From Ignavibacteriales bacterium (GTDB taxonomy: Bacteria > Bacteroidota > Ignavibacteria > Ignavibacteriales > Melioribacteraceae), in contig JACOUS010000030.1 in assembly GCA_016177735.1 (NCBI GenBank), forward strand, positions 1 to 64,000: 64,000 nucleotides of DNA, read 5' to 3'. Position numbers and translations under genes: made by a program. The notes beneath the pieces were generated by a model that worked only from the letters and a program-made list of their open reading frames with translations, made no database searches and was not told the DNA's origin. Shown one piece after another: positions 28,151 to 40,343 of the stretch. Each line of letters opens with the position of its first letter. Position 1 is the stretch's first letter.

Positions 28151-28412
28151 ACGAGAAAACGAAACATCATTAAAGCAATTCAATATTATTTATTTGAGAA
28201 TGAATAATTATGCAAAAATTTTACTACCGTCCCAAACTTTATTGACATGATTAAAACTCTTGCAAGATCGATACTTCCTAATGATTTATATGCTTTACAA
28301 ACAAATTTGACCCAGATAATTTTTTTGCAGTAACAACAACTTACAATACTTGATTTAATCGGATTGCAAAGAAAAGTTTGGGGCAGCTATAAAAAATTTC
28401 TATAAATAAGGC

Positions 28413-28441
28413 TTGACATCGCAAATGCAAAGCAGTATAAT
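28413..28441 (+). promoter_or_regulatory. Perfect sigma70-type consensus promoter of the ilv-leu operon
   Basis: TTGACA (28413-28418), a 17-bp spacer, TATAAT (28436-28441): all twelve consensus bases are present. Transcription should start near 28448-28450. This is the only exact match I noticed in the window, and it stands 306 bp before ilvD, leaving room for the leader ORF and RNA structures. Confidence 0.85.
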
Positions 28442-28455
28442 TGCACCTAACAATC

Positions 28456-28629
28456 ATGGTCAACAATAAAAAACATATCGTCACAATCCAAAAGATTTCA
28501 GGGCGAAAAGTGTCCGTTGAAGTTGACCGCTCAAATTTACTTAATATCACCTCTTTAGATAACCTTCTATTAGGGATTATTATTCTAACTATTATTAGCA
28601 TTATTAACCTAGTCATTATTCTAGGCTAA
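28456..28629 (+). CDS. Putative branched-chain leader peptide ORF (ilv attenuator)
   Basis: This 57-codon ORF ends in a run of regulatory codons: 16 of the 21 codons from 28564 to 28626 are Ile (9), Leu (6) or Val (1), the products of the operon that follows. Four in-frame stops (TAA TAA TAA TAG, 28627-28638) end it. ATG 28456 lies only about 7 nt after the predicted transcription start. An in-frame GTG at 28510 has AGGG six bases upstream and would give a 39-residue peptide. The hydrophobic tail would also read as one membrane helix, so a small membrane protein is the alternative. Stalling of the ribosome here when Ile/Leu/Val-tRNA is scarce is the proposed role. Confidence 0.65.
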   Translation: MVNNKKHIVTIQKISGRKVSVEVDRSNLLNITSLDNLLLGIIILTIISIINLVIILG

Positions 28630-28705
28630 TAATAATAGTCAATCCCTAAACCAACATAACATTACACAACGCATATTAAAACTTAGGGATTGGCTAAAGC
28701 CCTAA
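28570..28705 (+). promoter_or_regulatory. Candidate transcription attenuator with alternative RNA pairings
   Basis: Four segments can pair exclusively. Segment 1 (28570-28584, TTAGGGATTATTATT, inside the leader ORF) pairs with segment 2 (28631-28649, bulged). Segment 2 (28636-28649) pairs with segment 3 (28683-28696) over 14 bp including one wobble. The start of segment 3 (TTAGGG, 28683-28688) pairs with segment 4 (CCCTAA, 28700-28705). This is the 1:2, 2:3, 3:4 layout of ribosome-mediated attenuators. The 3:4 hairpin is short and its following sequence (TTGTATATCT) is only weakly T-rich, so termination efficiency is uncertain. Confidence 0.6.
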
Positions 28706-28747
28706 TTGTATATCTGAAGTTATGTGTAAAAATAATTCAGAGGAAAA

Positions 28748-30430
28748 ATGCGTTCCGATCTTGTAAAAAAAGGATTTGATAAAGCGCCGCATAGAAGCTT
28801 GTTAAAAGCAACCGGTGTTATAAAATCGGATGAAGATTTTAACAAACCTTTCATCGGTGTTTGCAATTCGTACATCGATTTAATCCCCGGTCATGTGCAT
28901 CTTCAAGAGTTCGGCAAAATTGTAAAAGAGGAAATACGCAAAGCCGGCGGTGTTCCGTTCGAGTTCAACACAATTGGTGTTGATGACGGAATTGCAATGG
29001 GACACATCGGAATGCGCTTCTCGCTTGCAAGCAGAGAATTGATTGCCGATAGTTTGGAAACTGTTGTTGAAGCTCATCGTTTGGACGGATTAGTCTGCAT
29101 TCCCAACTGCGATAAAATTGTGCCCGGTATGTTGATGGGCGCAGTGCGCGTAAACGTTCCAACAATTTTTATTTCCGGCGGACCGATGAAAGCCGGGTAC
29201 ACTCCTTCGGGTGAAGTGGTTGATTTGATTTCGGTATTCGAAGGAGTAGGAAAATTTTCTGCCGGACAGATTGATGAAAAAAAATTAAAAGAGCTTGAAG
29301 ATTTCGGATGCCCTACTTGCGGTTCATGTTCGGGAATGTTTACGGCAAATTCGATGAACTGTTTGATGGAAGCCCTCGGAATGGCATTGCCGGGCAACGG
29401 CTCAATTTTAGCCGTTGATCCGAAAAGACATGAACTTGCCAAGCAAGCTGCGCGGCAAATTCTTGATGTTTTAAAATCGGATTTAAAACCCCGCGACATT
29501 ATCACGCGCGAATCAATATTGAATGCCTTTGCACTTGATATGGCAATGGGCGGAAGTACAAACACTGTTCTTCACACACTTGCAATTGCACACGAAGCCG
29601 GAATCGATTTTGATCTCGAAGAGATAAATGAATTATCGAAAAAGACTCCGTACATCTGCAAAGTTTCCCCGGCAGTAAAAAATGTTCATATGGAAGATGT
29701 TGACCGAGCCGGCGGAATTTCTGCGATACTCAATGAGCTTTCCAAAGTTGACGGCGTTTTGGATTTATCACGACCAACCGTAACCGGCAAATCGATCGGA
29801 GAAAATATTAAAGCGGCAGAAGTGAAAGACAGAGCAGTTATAAAATCTATTGATGAACCGTACAGAAAAACCGGCGGGCTCTCGGTTCTCTTCGGAAATC
29901 TTGCACCGAAAGGATCGATTGTAAAAACCGGTGCGGTTGAAGAAAAAATGCTTGTGCATAAAGGTCCGGCTGTTATTTTCAATTCTCAAGACGAAGCGAT
30001 TGCCGGAATTAGAAACGGGAAAGTAATACCGGGCAGCGTTGTTGTTATTCGTTACGAAGGACCGAAAGGCGGACCGGGCATGCCCGAAATGCTTGCACCA
30101 ACAAGTGAAATTATGGGAATGGGAATCGGTGATAAAGTTGCTTTGATAACGGACGGAAGATTTTCCGGCGGAACACGCGGTGCTTGTATCGGTCACGTTT
30201 CTCCGGAAGCTGCTGTCAAAGGTCCGATTGCAGCTTTGAAAGACGGAGATATTATTTCAATTGATATTCCGAACAACTTACTAAATGTAGAATTGAGCGA
30301 AGAAGAAATAGAAAAAAGATTGAATGAACTACCGGTGTTCAAACCAAAAATTACAAACGGTTATTTAGGCAGATACGCAAAGATGGTTACATCTGCAAAC
30401 ACCGGTGCAGTATTAAGTTTACCAGATTAA
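28748..30430 (+). CDS. ilvD: Dihydroxy-acid dehydratase
   Basis: The 560-aa enzyme dehydrates 2,3-dihydroxy-isovalerate and -methylvalerate to the keto acids of valine and isoleucine. The iron-sulfur cysteine motifs CIPNCDK and [11 protein letters not shown] are present, as is the active-site region [19 protein letters not shown]. Length is normal. The ATG is preceded by AGAGGA (28739-28744). It is the first structural gene after the leader region and is likely controlled by it. Confidence 0.97.
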
Positions 30431-30448: not shown

Positions 30449-32167
30449 ATGCATACCAAGAAAAAGAATATGTCCGGAGCCGACATATTTTTCGAATGCT
30501 TAAAACGGGAGAATGTTGAATACGTTTTCGGATATCCCGGCGGCGCAGTATTAAAAATTTACGAACATCTTCACGATGTCGATTTTCTTAAGCATATTTT
30601 GGTTCGGCATGAGCAAGGTGCAACACACATGGCTGAAGGATACGCCAAAGCAACCGGAAAAGTCGGGGTTGTATTGGTTACTTCGGGTCCCGGTGCAACA
30701 AATACTGTTACGGGAATTGCAGATGCATATATGGATTCCGTTCCGATTGTTGTTTTCACCGGACAAGTTGCAACACATCTTATCGGCAACGATGCATTTC
30801 AAGAAGCAGATATTGTCGGCATAACACGACCGATCACCAAGCACAATTTTTTGGTGCGAGACGTAAACGAACTTGCATCCATAATTAAAAAAGCTTTTTA
30901 CATTGCATCAACCGGAAGACCCGGACCGGTGCTTGTTGATCTTCCCAAAAATGTAATTAACAGCGTTTGTGAATTTAATTATCCCGAAGAAGTAGAACTG
31001 CGCGGATATAAATTGAGAACACACGGTCATCAAAACCAAATTAAAAAAGCGGCAACGATGATTCAGAAAGCAAAGAGACCGTTGTTGTATGTCGGCGGCG
31101 GCGTAATTATGTCCGGCGGCAATCGTGAATTATATCTGCTTGCAAAAGAAAATAATCTTCCGGTAACGATGACACTTCAAGGACTCGGTGCGTTTCCCGG
31201 AACAGAACCGCAATCACTCGGAATGCTTGGAATGCACGGAACGTACTGGGCAAATCAAGCTGTGAATAATTGTGATCTTCTTGTTTCGCTGGGTGCTCGT
31301 TTCGATGACAGAGTAACCGGCAAGATTGAAACATTTGCAACAAAAGCATACAAGATTCACGTTGATATCGATCCTACTTGCATCGATAAAAATGTTATTG
31401 TTGATCTTCCAATAGTTGGCGATGTAAAACATGTTATGGCGGAACTCGCTTCCGAGCTCAACACGAAACCGGATGTTGAAGAGTGGTGGGCGCAGATTGA
31501 ACAATGGAAAGAAGAATGTCCGCTCGATTATGAAACGAACGACGGCAGACTTCGCTCGCAGTATGTTGTATCAAAACTTTCCGAATTAACAAAAGGCGAA
31601 GCAGTTGTTGTAACCGATGTCGGACAAAATCAAATGTGGACTGCACAGTATTACAAATTCAATCATCCGCGTTCACACATAACAAGCGGAGGTTTGGGAA
31701 CGATGGGCTTCTCGCTTCCGGCTTCAATAGGCGCTGCATTCGGCGTAAAAGACAGACCGATAATTTCTATCAACGGCGACGGCGGTTTTCAAATGAACAT
31801 TCAGGAACTTGTAACCGCAGTCTATCACAAACTCCCGATCAAATTTATAATCCTCAATAACAGTTTTCTCGGAATGGTAAGACAATGGCAAGAATTATTT
31901 CATGCAGAGAAGTACAGCTTCACCGAACTTTCCGAGAGCAATCCGAATTTTGTAAAAGTTGCAGAAGCATTCGGGCTCAAAGCTTTTTCAACGGATAAAC
32001 CGGCTGATGTTGTGCCGTTATTAAAAGAAGCACTCGATTATAACGATGGTCCGGTTCTGCTCGAATTCAAAGTTGTGAAAGAAGATATGGTATTTCCGAT
32101 AATCCCTTCCGGTGCTTCAATAAGCGATATGATCACACGAAGGTTAGACCCCAAGGAGATGATGTAA
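30449..32167 (+). CDS. ilvB: Acetolactate synthase, large (catalytic) subunit
   Basis: The 572-aa TPP-dependent enzyme condenses two pyruvates, or pyruvate with 2-ketobutyrate. Visible are the catalytic Glu in VRHEQGATHMAEGYA, the central FAD-binding region and the TPP/Mg motif INGDGGFQMNIQEL. AAAAGGA precedes the ATG. The gene for the regulatory subunit follows after one base. Confidence 0.97.
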   Translation: MHTKKKNMSGADIFFECLKRENVEYVFGYPGGAVLKIYEHLHDVDFLKHILVRHEQGATHMAEGYAKATGKVGVVLVTSGPGATNTVTGIADAYMDSVPIVVFTGQVATHLIGNDAFQEADIVGITRPITKHNFLVRDVNELASIIKKAFYIASTGRPGPVLVDLPKNVINSVCEFNYPEEVELRGYKLRTHGHQNQIKKAATMIQKAKRPLLYVGGGVIMSGGNRELYLLAKENNLPVTMTLQGLGAFPGTEPQSLGMLGMHGTYWANQAVNNCDLLVSLGARFDDRVTGKIETFATKAYKIHVDIDPTCIDKNVIVDLPIVGDVKHVMAELASELNTKPDVEEWWAQIEQWKEECPLDYETNDGRLRSQYVVSKLSELTKGEAVVVTDVGQNQMWTAQYYKFNHPRSHITSGGLGTMGFSLPASIGAAFGVKDRPIISINGDGGFQMNIQELVTAVYHKLPIKFIILNNSFLGMVRQWQELFHAEKYSFTELSESNPNFVKVAEAFGLKAFSTDKPADVVPLLKEALDYNDGPVLLEFKVVKEDMVFPIIPSGASISDMITRRLDPKEMM

Positions 32168-32168
32168 T

Positions 32169-32675
32169 ATGCAGCATATTATTTCTGTTCTTTGCGAAAA
32201 TCAATTCGGTGCGTTCAACCGCATCGTTACTATGTTCAGCGGAAAAGGATTTAATGTTCACTCGATGTCTATCGGAGAAACAGAGAATCCGGAAATTTCC
32301 AGAATGACGATTGTTACAGAAGGCGATGATAAAATTATCGAACAAGTTGTTAAGCAATTGAATCGTTTGATCGATACGATAAAAATTGTTGACTTGACTG
32401 AGCAGGCAATTGTTCAAAGAGAACTTGCACTTCTTACCGTGTTCTATCAAAAAGGGAATCGCGGAGAAATAATTGATATCTGCGAAATCTTCCGCGGCAA
32501 TATTGTTGATATCAATAATAAAAATCTAATGCTCGAAATTACCGGTCCGCCGGATAAAATAGACGCGGCAATAAATGTGCTCATGCCGTACGGCATTAAA
32601 GAAATTGCACGCTCCGGAAATGTTGTTCTTAAAAGAGGAGAGCAAGCGGCAAAAGTTGTTCACGAAAAAGAATAA
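32169..32675 (+). CDS. ilvN: Acetolactate synthase, small (regulatory) subunit
   Basis: This 168-aa protein has an N-terminal ACT domain (ENQFGAFNRIVTMFSGKGFNV, about residues 1-78) and the C-terminal acetolactate-synthase small-subunit domain. The ACT domain binds valine for feedback inhibition in the family. It begins two bases after the ilvB stop, with AAGGAG inside the end of ilvB, so the subunits are probably made in step. Confidence 0.96.
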   Translation: MQHIISVLCENQFGAFNRIVTMFSGKGFNVHSMSIGETENPEISRMTIVTEGDDKIIEQVVKQLNRLIDTIKIVDLTEQAIVQRELALLTVFYQKGNRGEIIDICEIFRGNIVDINNKNLMLEITGPPDKIDAAINVLMPYGIKEIARSGNVVLKRGEQAAKVVHEKE

Positions 32676-32680
32676 AGAAT

Positions 32681-32742
32681 AGCACACAATCGAACTGGGT
32701 TAAGCAGATGCAAACTGATTAACCTTTTTGAGATTGTGTGTT
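32681..32742. repeat. Inverted-repeat element in the ilvN-ilvC spacer
   Basis: The outer arms CACACAATC (32683-32691) / GATTGTGTG (32732-32740) enclose GGTTAA (32698-32703) / TTAACC (32719-32724). The outer stem is followed by TTAAAAAAATTTTT, so it could also slow or terminate transcription. It resembles the element at 33784-33823. Confidence 0.6.
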
Positions 32743-32777
32743 AAAAAAATTTTTAATCAACGAGGAGACAAATAACA

Positions 32778-33770
32778 ATGAAAGTTTATTACGATTCAGA
32801 TGCGAACTTAGATTTATTAAAAGGTAAAAAACTGGCAGTGATCGGATTCGGAAGTCAAGGACATGCACACGCGCTTAATTTGAAAGACAGCGGAATGGAA
32901 GTTGGAGTTGGTTTGAGAAAAAACAGCGCACGCTGGAAAGAAGCTGAAGAAGCCGGCGTAAAAGTTATGACCGTTGATGAAGTTTCCGAATGGGGCGATG
33001 TGATAATGATTCTTCTGCCCGATCAAACGCAAAAAGAAGTTTATGAAAATGAAATCAAGCAGCATTTGAAAGCCGGAAAAACTTTGGCATTCGCACACGG
33101 GTTCAATATTCTTTACAAACAAGTTGTTCCGCCGAAGGATGTTGACGTTATTATGATTGCACCGAAAAGCCCGGGACATTTGGTGAGAAGAACTTATCAA
33201 GGCGGAAGCGGCACGCCGTGTTTAATCGCAATTGAACAAGATGCAACCGGCAAAGCAAAAGAGACTGCACTTGCGTGGGCAAAGGGAATTGGTGGTACGC
33301 GCGCCGGTGTCATCGAAACAACTTTTAAGAATGAAACCGAGACTGATTTATTCGGCGAGCAAGCTGTACTATGCGGCGGCTCTGCAGAACTTATCAAAGC
33401 CGGTTTTGAAACTTTGGTTGAAGGCGGCTACGATCCCGAACTCGCTTACTTTGAATGTATGCACGAATTAAAATTGATTGTTGATCTCTACTATGAAGGC
33501 GGACTTTCGAGAATGAATTACTCCGTGAGCGATACTGCCGAATACGGCGGAATGACACGCGGCAGTAGAGTTGTTACTCAGGAAAGTAAAAAAGAAATGA
33601 AAAAAATCCTGAATGAAATTCAAACCGGAAAATTTGCCGAAGAATGGATCAACGAAAATAAAAATGGTCTGCCTCTTTTGAGCAAACTTAGAGAAGAAAA
33701 TAAAAATCACCCGGTGGAAAAAGTTGGTGCTCAATTAAGAAGTATGATGAGCTGGTTAATCAAAAAATAA
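32778..33770 (+). CDS. ilvC: Ketol-acid reductoisomerase, class I
   Basis: The 330-aa NADPH-dependent enzyme isomerises and reduces acetolactate or acetohydroxybutyrate. It has an N-terminal Rossmann domain ([17 protein letters not shown]) and the knotted helical C-terminal domain with metal-binding acidic residues ([19 protein letters not shown]). The length is that of the short class I form. CGAGGAGA stands before the ATG. Confidence 0.97.
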
Positions 33771-33783
33771 TAATAAAAAAACA

Positions 33784-33823
33784 GCACACAGATTTAGCTG
33801 ATAAATCTGTTTAATCTGTGTGC
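33784..33823. repeat. Inverted-repeat element in the ilvC-leuB spacer
   Basis: GCACACAGATT (33784-33794) and AATCTGTGTGC (33813-33823) are perfect 11-bp complements around an 18-nt loop. It has the same outer theme (AGCACACA.AT) as the element in the preceding spacer and probably belongs to one repeat family. Confidence 0.65.
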
Positions 33824-33850
33824 CATATGATTTAATATTTGGAGAAAGCG

Positions 33851-34945
33851 ATGTTTAAAATTACACTCTTGCCCGGAGACGGAATTGGTCCAGAGGTAGT
33901 TGATGCGGCGGTAAAAATTTTGAAACATGTCGGTGAAAGATTCAACACAGAATTTGAATTGAACACATGTTTGATGGGCGGTTCATCGTATGATGTTCAC
34001 GGCACTCCATTAACCGATGAAGTGATAAGTGAATGTTACAGTTCCGATGCAGTATTTCTCGGTGCAGTCGGCGGACCGAAATGGGAAGACCTTCCGCATC
34101 ACTTAAAACCGGAAGCGGCATTGTTGAAAATTAGAAAGGCACTTGGATTGTATGCGAATCTTCGTCCGGCAAAAGTTTACACACCGATGCTTTCATATTC
34201 ATCATTGAAAGACGAAGTATTGAAAGGAACCGACGTGATGATTGTCCGCGAACTTACCGGCGGAATTTATTTCGGTCAGCCGCGCGGCTACGATGATGAA
34301 AAAGGTTTCAACACGATGATATACACAAAAGAAGAAGTTGAACGGATTGCACGCACTGCATTTAATCTTGCACGTGTTCGCGGCAAAAGAGTAACATCGG
34401 TTGATAAAGCAAACGTGCTCGAAGTATCGCAGTTTTGGCGTAAGGTGATTATCGAAGTTCATAAAGATTATCCCGATGTAGAATTAAATCACATGTACGT
34501 AGATAATGCAGCGATGCAGATTGTGCGCGATCCGAAACAGTTTGATGTTTTGGTTACGTCAAATTTGTTCGGAGATATTTTGAGCGACATCGCAGCGATG
34601 ATAACCGGAAGTTTGGGAATGCTGCCTTCTGCAAGTCTCGGTGCAAAGTATGCCTTGTACGAACCGGTTCACGGAAGCGCACCCGATATTGCCGGAAAAA
34701 ATATTGCAAATCCGATTGCCGCTGTTTCTTCTCTTGCAATGATGCTCAAATATTCTTTTGAAATGGATAAAGCTGCAGAAATAATTGAAGAAGCAATCGA
34801 AGCTGTTTTGAACAAAGGTTACAGAACAAAAGATATTTATAAAGAAGGCGATAAACTTGTTTCGACCGATCAAATGACGGATAAAATTATCGATGAGTTC
34901 GAAAGAATTTTTTACAACCAAGCTATAAACGTGTTTACTCTTTGA
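33851..34945 (+). CDS. leuB: 3-isopropylmalate dehydrogenase
   Basis: The 364-aa enzyme oxidatively decarboxylates 3-isopropylmalate in leucine synthesis, and also methylmalate in the citramalate route. N-terminal LLPGDGIGPEV and the substrate/metal region YVDNAAMQIVRDP...VTSNLFGDILSD are diagnostic. A TTG at 33839 opens the frame, but GGAG (33841-33844) lies six bases before the ATG at 33851, which also gives the normal N-terminus MFKITLLPGDG. Confidence 0.96.
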   Translation: MFKITLLPGDGIGPEVVDAAVKILKHVGERFNTEFELNTCLMGGSSYDVHGTPLTDEVISECYSSDAVFLGAVGGPKWEDLPHHLKPEAALLKIRKALGLYANLRPAKVYTPMLSYSSLKDEVLKGTDVMIVRELTGGIYFGQPRGYDDEKGFNTMIYTKEEVERIARTAFNLARVRGKRVTSVDKANVLEVSQFWRKVIIEVHKDYPDVELNHMYVDNAAMQIVRDPKQFDVLVTSNLFGDILSDIAAMITGSLGMLPSASLGAKYALYEPVHGSAPDIAGKNIANPIAAVSSLAMMLKYSFEMDKAAEIIEEAIEAVLNKGYRTKDIYKEGDKLVSTDQMTDKIIDEFERIFYNQAINVFTL

Positions 34946-34950
34946 GTAAA

Positions 34951-35024
34951 AACAAATAACAAATTACAAGCATTTACAAAAGATCGAAAAGGTAAATAGA
35001 TGGTTTTGGAATTAGTTATTTGTT
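34951..35024. repeat. Inverted-repeat element in the leuB-leuA spacer
   Basis: AACAAATAAC (34951-34960) is complementary to GTTATTTGTT (35015-35024). The left side contains AAATAACAAATTACAA, identical over 16 bases to the left side of the element at 38646, so these are two copies of one family. Confidence 0.6.
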
Positions 35025-35073
35025 GATTGGAATTTTAGAGAAGAATAAAAACGAGGAATAAACGAGGTAGGCA

Positions 35074-36657
35074 ATGTCATCAAACAGAATATTAATATTC
35101 GATACAACTTTGCGGGACGGCGAACAATCCCCGGGTGCATCTTTAAATGTTCACGAAAAATTAGAGATCGCACACCAGCTTGCAAAGTTAAAAGTGGATG
35201 TTATAGAAGCCGGCTTCCCGGTTTCATCACCGGCACAATTCGAAGCAGTGAAAAGAATAGCTGATGAAGTTGATGCAATCATTGCCGGTCTATCGAGAGC
35301 AAATGAAAAAGATATTAAAGCCGCCGCCGATTCGCTTTATTCAGCACCGCGAAAAAGAATTCATACTTTTTCAAGCACATCGGATTATCACATACTCGGC
35401 AAGTTTGGACACGAGCGTTACGGTTCGACACTTCAGGAAAAAAGAAAAACAATTTTGAAGATGTCGTACGATGCAGTTGCTTATGCAAAAACATTTACCG
35501 ATGATGTAGAATTTTCTGCCGAAGATGCCGGGCGCACAGATATCGGTTACCTCGCTGAAGTTATCGAAACTGCAATTGAAGCCGGTGCAGCAACCGTGAA
35601 TATTCCGGATACAACCGGTTACACGCTTCCGTTTGAGTATGGTGAAAAAATTGCCGAATTGAAAAGACGTGTTAAAAATATTGATAAAGCAATTATCAGC
35701 GTTCACTGCCACAATGATTTGGGACTCGCAGTTGCAAATTCAATTTCGGCTGTTCAAAACGGAGCGCGCCAAGTTGAATGTACAATTAACGGAATCGGCG
35801 AGCGTGCCGGCAATGCTTCGCTCGAAGAATTTGTAATGGCGCTCAATGTTCGAAAAGATTTGTTGAATTATTATGCAAACATTAACACGCATGAAATTTA
35901 TAACACAAGCAAAATGGTTTCTGCTTTTACCGGGATGCTTGTTCAACGAAACAAAGCAATTGTCGGCGAGAATGCTTTTTCACACGAATCGGGAATTCAT
36001 CAAGACGGGGTTTTGAAGAACCGCGAGACTTACGAAATAATGACGCCTGAATCGGTCGGTATTATAAATAATAAAATTGTTCTCGGTCGTCATTCGGGCA
36101 GACACGGATTAAAATCGAGACTCGAACAACTCGGTTACAAAGTGAGCGAAGAAGAACTCCAGCATATTTATGATGCGTTCACGGAACTCGCCGATAAAAA
36201 GAAAGAAGTTTTTGATGATGACCTCCGCATGTTGATGGGCGACGAAATCCAAAAGAAAGATGAAATTTATGAACTCGTTTATCTTCAAGTTCATACCGGA
36301 ACTAATTCAATTCCGAATGCAGTAGTGAGAATTAAAATTGGCGATCGTGTTATCGAAGAAGCTGCAACCGGTGACGGTTCTGTTGATGCTGTGTTTAATT
36401 CAATCGAAAGAGCACTTGGAATCAAATCCGAAGTTGAATCATATCAAGTTAGATCCGTTACATCGGGAAGAGAAGCTATGGGCGAAGTGTTGGTTCGAAT
36501 TAGAAGCGGCGGAAAATCTTTTACCGGAAGAGGAATCTCGACAGATATAATTGAAGCGAGTGCGAAATCATATTTGAGCGCGCTCAATCAAAAAGAACAA
36601 TATGCGAAAGAAGTTGAAACACTAAATCAAAACGAAAAATTATCTGAAGTAATATAA
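35074..36657 (+). CDS. leuA: 2-isopropylmalate synthase
   Basis: The 527-aa protein has the HMGL-like TIM barrel with FDTTLRDGEQSPGASLN and the metal ligands in HCHNDLGLAVANS. A C-terminal LeuA dimerisation/regulatory domain (about 390-520) normally binds leucine for feedback inhibition. It condenses acetyl-CoA with 2-ketoisovalerate. Its position after leuB differs from the common leuABCD order. The paralogous condensing enzyme at 38757 handles pyruvate instead. Confidence 0.95.
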   Translation: MSSNRILIFDTTLRDGEQSPGASLNVHEKLEIAHQLAKLKVDVIEAGFPVSSPAQFEAVKRIADEVDAIIAGLSRANEKDIKAAADSLYSAPRKRIHTFSSTSDYHILGKFGHERYGSTLQEKRKTILKMSYDAVAYAKTFTDDVEFSAEDAGRTDIGYLAEVIETAIEAGAATVNIPDTTGYTLPFEYGEKIAELKRRVKNIDKAIISVHCHNDLGLAVANSISAVQNGARQVECTINGIGERAGNASLEEFVMALNVRKDLLNYYANINTHEIYNTSKMVSAFTGMLVQRNKAIVGENAFSHESGIHQDGVLKNRETYEIMTPESVGIINNKIVLGRHSGRHGLKSRLEQLGYKVSEEELQHIYDAFTELADKKKEVFDDDLRMLMGDEIQKKDEIYELVYLQVHTGTNSIPNAVVRIKIGDRVIEEAATGDGSVDAVFNSIERALGIKSEVESYQVRSVTSGREAMGEVLVRIRSGGKSFTGRGISTDIIEASAKSYLSALNQKEQYAKEVETLNQNEKLSEVI

Positions 36658-36669
36658 AGGATTATTTAG

Positions 36670-37965
36670 ATGGGAATGACGATCACAGAAAAAATTTTGG
36701 CGAAAGCTTCGGGAAGAGACAGAGTTGTGCCCGGAGAAAATATCTGGCTCAATGTTGATGTGCTGATGACTCACGATGTTTGCGGACCGCCGACAATCGG
36801 AATATGGAAAAGAGAATTCGGTGAGAAAGCAAAAATTTGGGATAAGCAGAAGCTTGTAGTTTTTCCCGATCATTACATTTTTACAGCCAATGCGCAAGCA
36901 AATAGAAATGTAAATATTCTCCGTGAGTTCGCGAAAGAATTCGATATCCCGAATTACTACGATGTTGGAACGGAAAGATATAAAGGCGTGTGCCACATTG
37001 CGCTTGCGGAAGAAGGATACAATATTCCCGGAACAGTTTTGTTCGGCACAGATTCGCACACGTGTACATCGGGCGCGTTTGGAATGTTCTCGACGGGAGT
37101 CGGCAACACAGATGCGGCTTTCATTCTCGGCACCGGAAAAATTTGGGAAAAAGTTCCTGAGTCTTTGAAATTTATTTTTGATGGAGAACTTCCGAATTAT
37201 TTGACGGCGAAAGATTTGATACTTCAGGTGCTCGGCGATATTACAACGGACGGCGGAACTTACCGCGCACTCGAATTTGACGGCTCTACTGTTTTTGCAA
37301 TGCAGATGGATGAAAGAATGACTTTGACAAATATGGCAATTGAAGCCGGCGCTATGAACGGAATTATCAAAGCAGACGAAGTAACTGAAAAGTATGTGAA
37401 GGAAAGAACAAAGGCAGAGTACGAAATTTTTGAAAGCGATGCCGATGCAAAATACAGATCGGTTTACAAATACGATACATCAAAAATAGAACCGCTTGTT
37501 GCAAAACCGCACAGTCCAGATAACCGCGACACAGTAAGAAATGTTCGGGGAACAAAACTTACAAAATGTTATATCGGTTCGTGCACCGGTGGAAAACTTT
37601 CCGATTTTATGAATGCGGCAAAAATAATTTTTGGAAATACGGTAAAGGTTCCGACCTTCATTGTACCGGCAAGTACGTTTGTTGCGCGCCAGCTTGAAGA
37701 AGAAACGATCAGCGGCGTTTCGCTCAAACAAATTTTTGAAAATGCCGGATGCGTAATTGCACAATCATCTTGTGCGGCTTGCCTCGGCGGACCTTCCGAC
37801 ACAATCGGAAGAGCTGCCGATGGTGAAGTTGTTATTTCAACAACAAACAGAAATTTCCCGGGCAGAATGGGAAGCAAAAAATCCGAAGTCTATCTCGCTT
37901 CTCCGTACACGGTCGCTTCTTCTGCATTAACCGGCGTAATTACCGATCCGAGAGAATTTTTATAA
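36670..37965 (+). CDS. leuC: 3-isopropylmalate dehydratase, large subunit
   Basis: The 431-aa aconitase-family subunit carries the [4Fe-4S] cysteines in CYIGSCTGGKLSDF and SSCAACLGG, and the GTDSHTCTSGAFGMFSTGVG active-site region. It is of the shorter (archaeal/HacA-like) type rather than the longer proteobacterial LeuC. It acts with the leuD product, encoded after a repeat-filled spacer. Citramalate is a likely second substrate, given cimA. Confidence 0.94.
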   Translation: MGMTITEKILAKASGRDRVVPGENIWLNVDVLMTHDVCGPPTIGIWKREFGEKAKIWDKQKLVVFPDHYIFTANAQANRNVNILREFAKEFDIPNYYDVGTERYKGVCHIALAEEGYNIPGTVLFGTDSHTCTSGAFGMFSTGVGNTDAAFILGTGKIWEKVPESLKFIFDGELPNYLTAKDLILQVLGDITTDGGTYRALEFDGSTVFAMQMDERMTLTNMAIEAGAMNGIIKADEVTEKYVKERTKAEYEIFESDADAKYRSVYKYDTSKIEPLVAKPHSPDNRDTVRNVRGTKLTKCYIGSCTGGKLSDFMNAAKIIFGNTVKVPTFIVPASTFVARQLEEETISGVSLKQIFENAGCVIAQSSCAACLGGPSDTIGRAADGEVVISTTNRNFPGRMGSKKSEVYLASPYTVASSALTGVITDPREFL

Positions 37966-37969
37966 AAGA

Positions 37970-38043
37970 CTTAGTGGCTTTGTGTCTTAGTGGCGATTTA
38001 TACTTAGAACATTTTTTTGCCACAAAGGCACGAAGACACAGAG
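37970..38043. repeat. Imperfect inverted-repeat element in the leuC-leuD spacer
   Basis: The left arm (37970-37994, CTTAGTGGCTTTGTGTC...) and right arm (38019-38043, GCCACAAAGGCACGAAGACA...) are mostly complementary around a 24-nt loop. Each arm is itself a run of AAG/CAC triplet-like steps. This motif type differs from the other two families in the operon. Confidence 0.6.
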
Positions 38044-38086
38044 ATTCACAAAGAACGACTGTGAAAAATTTTAAGGAGTGAGCTTA

Positions 38087-38644
38087 ATGGAAAAAATTAT
38101 AAAAGGAAAAGCATTTGTCCTTGGTGATAATATAGATACAGACCAAATTATTCCGGCAGAACATTTGGTTTACAGTTTAACAGATCCGGGCGAATTGAAA
38201 AATTATGGAAAGTATGCACTCTCCGGCGTACCACTTGGAGGTGCCGGTCTGCCGAACGGCGGAACATCTTTTGTTGATGAAGGGAATTACGAATCAAAGT
38301 TTAACATAATTATCGGCGGTGCAAATTTCGGATGCGGCTCGTCGCGCGAACATGCACCGTTTGCGTTGCAAGTTGCCGGTGCAAAAGTAATTGTTGCCGA
38401 ATCGTATGCGAGAATTTTTTTCAGAAATTCCGTTGACGGAGGATTTGTAATCCCATTCGATACTCCGCAGAAATTGAACGACAAAATTAAAACCGGCGAT
38501 GAACTTGAAATTGATTTAGCCGCAAACAAACTAAAGAATTACACGAGCGAAGAAGAATATCAATTAAATCCGCTCGGAGATATTCTTCCGATAATCGAAG
38601 CCGGAAATATTTTTGAATATGCCCGACAAAACAATATGATCTGA
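38087..38644 (+). CDS. leuD: 3-isopropylmalate dehydratase, small subunit
   Basis: The 185-aa swivel-domain subunit has LGDNIDTDQIIPAEHL and the substrate-binding ANFGCGSSREHAPFAL. A GTG at 38078 opens the frame, but AAGGAG (38073-38078) is eight bases before the ATG at 38087, so I start there. It pairs with LeuC. Confidence 0.95.
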   Translation: MEKIIKGKAFVLGDNIDTDQIIPAEHLVYSLTDPGELKNYGKYALSGVPLGGAGLPNGGTSFVDEGNYESKFNIIIGGANFGCGSSREHAPFALQVAGAKVIVAESYARIFFRNSVDGGFVIPFDTPQKLNDKIKTGDELEIDLAANKLKNYTSEEEYQLNPLGDILPIIEAGNIFEYARQNNMI

Positions 38645-38645
38645 T

Positions 38646-38709
38646 AAATAACAAATTACAAATACAAAATAACAATAAATGTCGGCAAAGGATTTGGGAT
38701 TTGTTATTT
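38646..38709. repeat. Inverted-repeat element in the leuD-cimA spacer
   Basis: AAATAACAAAT (38646-38656) pairs perfectly with ATTTGTTATTT (38699-38709). It shares the block AAATAACAAATTACAA with the element at 34951. The reading frame of cimA happens to stay open through it, which falsely lengthens the ORF upstream. Confidence 0.6.
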
Positions 38710-38756
38710 GTGTTTTTGGAAATTTAAAAGGCGATAGCCTGAAAACGAGGCTCAAA

Positions 38757-40343
38757 ATGTTTATAGAAGTATTTGATACAACTCTACGCGATGGGACACA
38801 AGGAGAGGGCGTAAATCTATCCGTTCAGGATAAATTGTTGATCGGCAAAAAACTTGATGAGTTTGGTATCGATATTATTGAAGGCGGCTGGCCCGGAAGT
38901 AATCCGAAGGACGAGGAATTTTTTAATCAGGCAAAATCACTAAAACTGCATCATGCAAAACTTTGTTCGTTTGGTTCTACTGCACGTTCGGTTGCGGATG
39001 TTGAGGGCGATTTCAATCTTAATGCACTGTTAAAATCGGAAACCCCCGTTATTACAATTTTTGGAAAAACGTGGCAGCTGCACTCACAAAAAGGATTGGG
39101 ATTAACCGATGATGAAAATGCCGAGTTGATATTCAAGTCCGTAAAATATTTAAGTTCGCACGGAAGAAGAGTAATTTTTGATGCAGAACATTTTTTTGAC
39201 GGATACAAACACAACAAAGATTTTGCTGTGCGAATGCTGCAATCAGCAGTGAAAGGAGGCGCAGATACACTTGTACTTTGCGATACAAACGGCGGCTCAT
39301 TACCAAATGAAGTTTTTAAAATCGTTACGGAAATAAAAAGTAAGTTCACAACAAAGATTGGAATACACACTCACAACGATGGAGAGCTTGCTGTTGCAAA
39401 TTCCATTGCTGCAATTCAAGCCGGGGCAGAACATGTTCAAGGAACAATCAACGGAGTAGGAGAAAGATGCGGCAACGCAAACTTGAGCAGTATAATTCCC
39501 AACATAATCCTAAAACTAAAATTTAATACCAGCCAGAAAGAAAATTTGAATCATCTCACTTCGATTGCGAATTATGTTTATGAATTGATGAACATTCATC
39601 CGAATACGCGGGCAGCGTACACTGGCAAATCTGCATTCGCTCACAAAGGTGGTGTTCATGTAAGTGCTGTTATGAAAGAAAGCAGAATGTACGAGCATGT
39701 TGAACCGGAAGTTGTGGGCAACAAGCAAAGAGTTTTGGTTTCTGATTTATCAGGGCAAAGCAATGTAAAATATAAAGCGAAGGAAGTGGGTATTGATTTA
39801 TCCGAGCACAAAGAATTAAGTAAACGAGTAGTTGAAAATATTAAGTCGCTCGAATTCAATGGTTACCAATTTGACGGCGCAGAAGCATCGTTCGAATTAA
39901 TTCTTCGTTCCGAGATGAATGAGTTTTCGCCGTTCTTCAAACTAATCGATTCCAAAGTAAATGTTTTTTATGACGATGCCGGGCATTCAACTGCAGAAAC
40001 AGTTTTGAAAATAGAAGTGAACGGAGAAATAGAACACACTGCATCCGATGGTGACGGACCGGTTAACGCTCTCGATAAAGCGTTGAGAAAAGCTTTGCTA
40101 AGATTTTATCCTGAAGTTGCGCAAATAAAATTAGTTGATTACAAAGTTCGCGTGCTCGATGAAAAAGACGGCACAGCCGCAAAAGTTCGTGTTATGATTG
40201 AATCGAGCGACGGCAGCGATACATGGGGTACTGTGGGTGTTTCAACAAATATTATCGAAGCAAGTTTCAAGGCTCTGAGCGACAGCATCAATTATAAACT
40301 TTTCCAAAATTACAAAGCACAACAAGAAACAGTTGTTAAGTAA
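38757..40343 (+). CDS. cimA: (R)-citramalate synthase
   Basis: The 528-aa LeuA-like enzyme has FDTTLRDGTQGEGVNLSVQDK and IEGGWPGSNPKDEEFF, which mark citramalate synthases rather than isopropylmalate synthases, and a C-terminal regulatory domain. It condenses pyruvate with acetyl-CoA, and with leuC, leuD and leuB gives 2-ketobutyrate for isoleucine without threonine deaminase. The frame is open from 38679, but ACGAGG (38745-38750) precedes the ATG at 38757. It is the last gene of the operon. Confidence 0.92.
   Translation: MFIEVFDTTLRDGTQGEGVNLSVQDKLLIGKKLDEFGIDIIEGGWPGSNPKDEEFFNQAKSLKLHHAKLCSFGSTARSVADVEGDFNLNALLKSETPVITIFGKTWQLHSQKGLGLTDDENAELIFKSVKYLSSHGRRVIFDAEHFFDGYKHNKDFAVRMLQSAVKGGADTLVLCDTNGGSLPNEVFKIVTEIKSKFTTKIGIHTHNDGELAVANSIAAIQAGAEHVQGTINGVGERCGNANLSSIIPNIILKLKFNTSQKENLNHLTSIANYVYELMNIHPNTRAAYTGKSAFAHKGGVHVSAVMKESRMYEHVEPEVVGNKQRVLVSDLSGQSNVKYKAKEVGIDLSEHKELSKRVVENIKSLEFNGYQFDGAEASFELILRSEMNEFSPFFKLIDSKVNVFYDDAGHSTAETVLKIEVNGEIEHTASDGDGPVNALDKALRKALLRFYPEVAQIKLVDYKVRVLDEKDGTAAKVRVMIESSDGSDTWGTVGVSTNIIEASFKALSDSINYKLFQNYKAQQETVVK

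Follow-up and report, generated by a model that had tools for sequence, protein, structure and literature searches.

The window, the whole 64,000-nt stretch of DNA that was analysed, comes from a genome of 3.87 Mb; the named relatives closest to it are Ignavibacteria, Melioribacter sp. among them. The window carries a branched-chain amino acid (BCAA) operon, ilvD-ilvBNC-leuBACD-cimA, in which ilvD is the first structural gene and all genes lie on the same strand. A consensus promoter and a short leader ORF precede ilvD, and 118 nt separate the end of this ORF from the ilvD start. The features of the region are as follows:

28413..28441, forward strand: leader promoter, TTGACA-17-TATAAT, 12 of 12 consensus matches
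28456..28629, forward strand: leader ORF, 57 codons, MVNNKKHIVTIQKISGRKVSVEVDRSNLLNITSLDNLLLGIIILTIISIINLVIILG, with homologous ORFs in 46 loci
28458..28464, forward strand: P0 5' arm, GGTCAAC, just inside the leader start
28522..28528, forward strand: P0 3' arm, GTTGACC, partner of the 5' arm
28553..28561, forward strand: segment 0, CTTTAGATA, codons S-L-D, partner of segment 5
28564..28626, forward strand: control codons, 16 of 21 Ile/Leu/Val, four of the Leu codons being CTA
28569..28578, forward strand: segment 1, ATTAGGGATT, codons L-G-I, partner of segment 2 or 4
28600..28633, forward strand: control-codon hairpin (28600-28612 with 28621-28633), reaching past the stop, present in the centroid fold
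28636..28649, forward strand: segment 2, TAGTCAATCCCTAA, partner of segment 1 or 3
28683..28696, forward strand: segment 3, TTAGGGATTGGCTA, partner of segment 2 (14 bp)
28700..28706, forward strand: segment 4, CCCTAAT, candidate partner of segment 3 (weak) or 1 (better)
28711..28719, forward strand: segment 5, TATCTGAAG, partner of segment 0 or 6
28736..28743, forward strand: segment 6, TTCAGAGG, with the ilvD Shine-Dalgarno AGAGG
28748..30430, forward strand: ilvD (TIGR00110)
30449..40343, forward strand: ilvB, ilvN, ilvC, leuB, leuA, leuC, leuD and cimA (citramalate synthase)

The promoter ends at 28441, 14 nt ahead of the leader ATG at 28456, and transcription probably starts at about 28448, which would give a 5' UTR of about 8 nt without a Shine-Dalgarno sequence. 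Most relatives carry TTGAC about 23 nt upstream of TAnnnTTG, 41-51 nt before the leader ATG. Since the promoter lies close to the leader start both in the window and in its relatives, the leader is probably translated nearly from the transcript 5' end, without a Shine-Dalgarno sequence. Gene order suggests that any switch in this leader would govern the whole operon from ilvD to cimA.

Reading the letters directly bears out the initial annotation on the leader ORF: 16 of its last 21 codons specify Ile, Leu or Val, and they are followed by four successive in-frame stops, the first TAA at 28627-28629 and then TAA TAA TAG (28630-28638). Given the codon usage of the window, such a composition would arise by chance with a probability of 3e-7 in a single fixed stretch, a value that makes no correction for how the stretch was chosen. 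A short leader ORF in which codons for the products of the pathway are clustered is what would be expected of a ribosome-mediated attenuator in the broad sense. Among Leu codons, the share of CTA is 5.2% across 15 genes of the window and 48% across the control regions of 35 leaders after dereplication; among Ile codons, the share of ATT goes from 53% to 88% in the same comparison. This bias falls partly within pairing segments and is thus not fully independent of structure. The segment 1 motif stands in frame 0 in all 43 of its 43 occurrences. The frame, intact in all leaders, the placement of segment 1 within it and the codon bias together call for translation of the leader, which we infer from these sequence features.

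A BCAA-rich ORF ends about 95-140 nt before ilvD in 46 of 50 comparable loci from the class and the named relatives, so that the Ile/Leu/Val codon run is kept in relatives, as the initial annotation had anticipated for an attenuator. The N-terminal peptide diverges, and what recurs is S-L-D, P-S or S-S-E, then L-G-I, then a G before the stop. No leader ORF was found at the other four of these loci, namely L031 and three loci of family f10 (L126-L128); L031 is a close relative by its ilvD (86% identity), and the absence of the leader there counts against the attenuator reading. One further locus (L026) has the ORF without a clear segment 1, which left 45 related loci for the pairing tests, and in these the ORF, the segment 1 motif in frame 0, and segments 2 and 3 all recur. 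Eight loci of family f5 (L129, L130, L132-L137) show the same plan in unrelated sequence, with a BCAA-rich ORF and GCCAGAGGC...GCCTCTGGC before ilvD.

The 312-nt leader folds better than 100 of 100 shuffled sequences (z = -4.2), and the segments named in the initial annotation are present: 1 can pair with 2, 2 with 3 over 14 bp, and 3 with 4 over a short stretch. RNAalifold on the full alignment recovered 2:3 alone, and the long-range helices emerged from a partner-swap test, in which the fit of a segment to its own partner was compared with its fit to the partners of other species (ten position-defined windows, 45 combinations, 35 leaders). The order was 2:3 (z = -8.1), 0:5 (-6.3), the control-codon hairpin (-5.2), 1:2 (-4.5) and then 1:4 (-3.6); 3:4 was weak (-2.3), and combinations without a proposed role scored around zero or above. 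Adding the ilvB and leuB leaders described below did not change the order, and in that extended run the P0 helix scored -9.4. Because kinship inflates these scores, the test was rerun on 20 sister pairs that are phylogenetically independent in an ilvD tree, with the P0 windows added to give 55 window pairs. The top four of the 55 were 1:2 (p = 0.010), P0 (0.012), 0:5 (0.013) and 2:3 (0.014), followed at lower ranks by 5:6 (0.044), the control-codon hairpin (0.084), 1:4 (0.094) and 3:4 (0.43), although no single p value survives correction for 55 tests, and segments 0 and 5 and P0 had first been spotted by eye in the sequences that were tested. The claim of pairing therefore draws on the agreement of the two tests and on counts of compensatory change, with changes on both sides in 17 cells for 0:5, 13 cells for 1:2 and 5 pairs for 2:3. 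Covariation, which the initial annotation had named as the check on its three pairings, was found for 1:2 and 2:3 and is missing for 3:4, where compensatory changes are absent.

P0 and 0:5 had escaped the initial annotation and are, on these comparisons, as well supported as 1:2 and 2:3. P0 pairs leader codons 2-8 with a stretch some 40-60 nt downstream; where P0 is strong (25 leaders), the end of the 3' arm falls in frame 0 in 8, in frame 1 in 9 and in frame 2 in 8 cases, which indicates that the RNA rather than the peptide is conserved. The 0:5 helix links the leader codons immediately preceding segment 1 with TCTGAAG close to the ilvD ribosome site, and this pairing explains the S-L-D type residues of the peptide. 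Segment 5 can also form a hairpin with segment 6 (TCTGAA at 28713-28718 with TTCAGA at 28736-28741); the local hairpin has -6.8 kcal/mol and z = -3.1 in the window, and in the partner-swap test with extra loci 5:6 scored z = -2.6. Since 1:2 and 2:3 share segment 2, they are mutually exclusive, and the retention of both with compensatory change points to a switch. The control codons are located between segment 1 and the stop.

We consider it very likely that the leader is a ribosome-mediated attenuator of the ilvD-ilvBNC-leuBACD-cimA operon that responds to charged Ile, Leu and Val tRNA, with a readout likely at ilvD initiation. The leader ORF would be translated almost from the transcript 5' end. 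When Ile, Leu or Val is short, a ribosome would stall on the control codons and 2:3 would form, leaving segments 0 and 1 free to close onto 5 and 4. When translation is not slowed, 1:2 would form, segment 3 would be free and segment 5 could pair with the Shine-Dalgarno flank; the result would most likely be lower ilvD initiation, possibly with polarity on the downstream genes. Stalling as the trigger is taken over from established attenuation systems, and the direction of the switch and a readout at the ribosome site rather than in transcription are our preferred interpretation.

As to the output, the initial annotation had assigned it to hairpin 3:4, while conceding that this hairpin is short and lacks a clear T-run. 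We found no terminator-like site in 28300-28900 and no U-tract after 3:4, so that no intrinsic terminator of the classical trp/ilv type, 3:4 plus U-tract, is demonstrated; the lack of compensatory change in 3:4 likewise speaks against it. Of the attenuator as first described, the leader peptide, the 1:2/2:3 switch and the link to BCAA operons stand, also at ilvB and leuB loci, and the 3:4 output is not supported. By calculation, opening the ilvD site costs less with 2:3 formed, as on stalling, than with 1:2 formed in 30 of 50 leaders, against 6. The mean difference was 1.4 kcal/mol versus 0.5 kcal/mol with the 3' part shuffled (p = 0.002), although 1.0 of the 1.4 kcal/mol remains when the 5' part is shuffled, so that the effect on readout is small and partly generic. 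In the window itself, the energy difference is 1.7 kcal/mol, with 5:6 formed in both states. In a model without forced pairings, where ribosomes merely occlude stretches of the leader, the ilvD site did not open and, at heavy occupancy, closed somewhat; this model gave no support to simple masking of the ribosome site by the free leader. Segment 5 pairs with the Shine-Dalgarno flank in many leaders, strikingly in L202 and L193. Taken together, the absence of a terminator, the lack of conservation of 3:4 and the energy calculations favour a translational readout over termination, though only moderately.

Two other routes to the ribosome site were considered and set aside. Pairing of the leader with the ilvD Shine-Dalgarno was rejected as a general feature (z of about 0 in the upstream leader window and 0.2 in window 0), and pairing of segment 3 with the Shine-Dalgarno (GAGGUCAA) is suggestive in L011, L032 and L113 and lacks general support. 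In these three leaders and in L053, the sequence around the Shine-Dalgarno, GAGGUCAA, repeats a portion of segment 2, so that it might pair with segment 3; GGTCAA occurs in the Shine-Dalgarno context of 1 of 247 background genes.

The same leader-peptide sensing might instead end in premature termination, either through the 0:5 helix and a U-run in place of 3:4 or through Rho, a possibility that we take seriously while thinking it rather doubtful. Termination is the output of most described branched-chain attenuators (PMC10272879, PMC11857589), Rho is encoded in the source genome, and canonical hairpin-plus-T terminators are found elsewhere in it. Runs of T6-T8 directly follow segment 5 in L012, L024, L025, L035, L114-L117 and L119, against a background of 2.8% of 141 genes of those genomes with T6 or longer at the corresponding place, and they could be a termination signal in several sublineages. 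However, these runs can also be read as Shine-Dalgarno partners, as in the L025 fold, neither 3:4 nor 0:5 has a U-run behind it in the window or its near relatives, and 3:4 does not co-evolve.

The link to branched-chain genes extends beyond ilvD. A covariance model that was trained on ilvD leaders alone and spans the leader stop through segment 5 gave 51 matches in 48 of 391 genomes of the class (E 0.01). It placed the element ahead of ilvB-ilvN-ilvC-leuB in L190-L195 and ahead of leuB-leuA-leuC in L199, with a BCAA-rich leader in every case; the element thus recurs before genes for the amino acids that it would sense, at ilvD, ilvB and leuB loci. Two more matches away from ilvD (L197 and L198) also have BCAA-rich leaders. 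In L190-L195, the few hundred bases ahead of ilvB-ilvN-ilvC-leuB begin like ilvD (MRS...), and ilvD seems to have been lost or replaced there while the leader was retained. Comparison across these loci establishes the ORF with its frame and codon run, the P0, 0:5, 1:2 and 2:3 pairings and the association with branched-chain operons as conserved traits of the sequence. Two further copies precede glutamate synthase genes: L200 (G036, about 150-560) keeps GGGATT, GGC-TAA and segments 2 and 3 while its Ile/Leu/Val run is replaced (NVQPTILKPGITKPTAAESITILKG), and L201 (G016) retains a fragment of the ilvD start. These copies are possibly re-aimed or decaying attenuators. In the source genome, the covariance model found no second credible copy, the matches L204 and L205 being without such an ORF, and of two His-codon runs elsewhere in this genome neither stands before a his operon. 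One match (L203, in G168) was discarded as false, the leader ORF being absent. At L196 (G111), the ilvD behind the leader is split into two ORFs of 250 and 340 codons, through a frameshift or an assembly error.

A broader reading, which we put forward tentatively as quite possible, is that this is a terminator-free attenuator in which the position of the ribosome on a coding sequence folded into several conserved helices, with one of these extending to the ilvD ribosome site, would set ilvD initiation, ancestral in Ignavibacteria and moved from there to ilvB, leuB and glutamate synthase genes.

We regard direct sensing of a metabolite or protein by a structured RNA, with a bystander ORF, as very unlikely. 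Such a reading would accommodate P0, which is the most strongly supported helix and lies far from the control codons; it sits poorly with the frame kept intact in all leaders, the constant frame of segment 1 and the codon bias, and Rfam covariance models (T-box, riboswitches and known leaders) gave no match to the window leader. That the ORF encodes a small hydrophobic membrane protein with incidental RNA pairings is scarcely credible: its C-terminus is hydrophobic and S-L-D, L-G-I and the G before the stop are conserved, the kind of peptide-level conservation that the initial annotation had named as pointing to a membrane protein, yet these residues fall on pairing segments and so give no such pointer, the P0 arm is kept at the RNA level in all three frames, N-termini diverge, Leu codon choice is extreme, L200 has lost the hydrophobic run while retaining the RNA segments, and no Pfam family matches the ORF.

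The enterobacterial ilv and leu operons follow the logic of ribosome-mediated attenuation, and most experimentally known cases of leader-peptide attenuation are from Proteobacteria, Actinobacteria and Firmicutes. Like the enterobacterial ilvGMEDA, leu and thr attenuators, the element in the window combines a leader of cognate codons, exclusive 1:2 and 2:3 pairings and a biosynthetic operon downstream, and it shares rare Leu CUA codons with leuL. In contrast to these systems, the Ignavibacteria leaders have an ORF of about 50-59 codons near the 5' end with pairing segments inside the codons, possess the additional helices P0 and 0:5, and show no demonstrable 3:4 terminator. Vitreschak et al. 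(2004) and Lopatovskaya et al. (2010) may have predicted leader-peptide attenuators in Bacteroidetes/Chlorobi, which makes novelty at the level of the larger group uncertain. No description combining leader peptide, attenuation and Ignavibacteria was found in the open-licence literature. What appears new, against the literature searched, is the Ignavibacteria lineage and the architecture; leader-peptide attenuation as such is known. In Ignavibacteria, BCAA attenuation would then be a regular feature, found alongside 5' leaders that are very short and in a coding sequence that also serves as a multi-helix RNA. Should translation prove to be the output, amino acid attenuation would be possible without a terminator for RNA polymerase, and the many natural variants of the leader offer a means to test the role of each helix.

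That ilv and leu genes can be under leader-peptide attenuation is well established (PMC10272879, PMC1262725, PMC5794164). For leader-peptide attenuation in general, a 2010 survey knew of no experimentally established case outside Proteobacteria and Actinobacteria (PMC2965389). The ilvB-II, ilvB-OMG and Leptospira ilvB motifs likewise place a conserved RNA and a BCAA-rich uORF before ilv genes, and the C. glutamicum leader also lacks a ribosome site; unlike the window leader, ilvB-II has an ORF of 15-17 aa and a terminator stem with a U stretch (PMC10272879). BCAA leader peptides are also found upstream of ilvB in Corynebacterium, Mycobacterium and Streptomyces and in the leuA LEU element, but these ilvB leaders overlap poly-U terminators, and the LEU element is a pseudoknot whose leader translation is unproven (PMC1262725). 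The S. aureus ilv-leu attenuator peptide, as far as its description goes, resembles the window leader in its BCAA-rich leader and ilvD-first operon and differs in belonging to Firmicutes and in being combined with CodY (PMC5794164).

BCAA-rich ORFs also occur before ilvD in Neomarinimicrobiota, Chlorobiaceae, Calditrichia, KSB1, CSSED10-310 and Chloroflexi, including Anaerolineae (L037, L038, L040; L042-L052; L044, L053; L045, L055; L085; L088; L058 and others). In some Chloroflexi, a hairpin with a T-run stands behind the BCAA-rich ORF that precedes ilvD.
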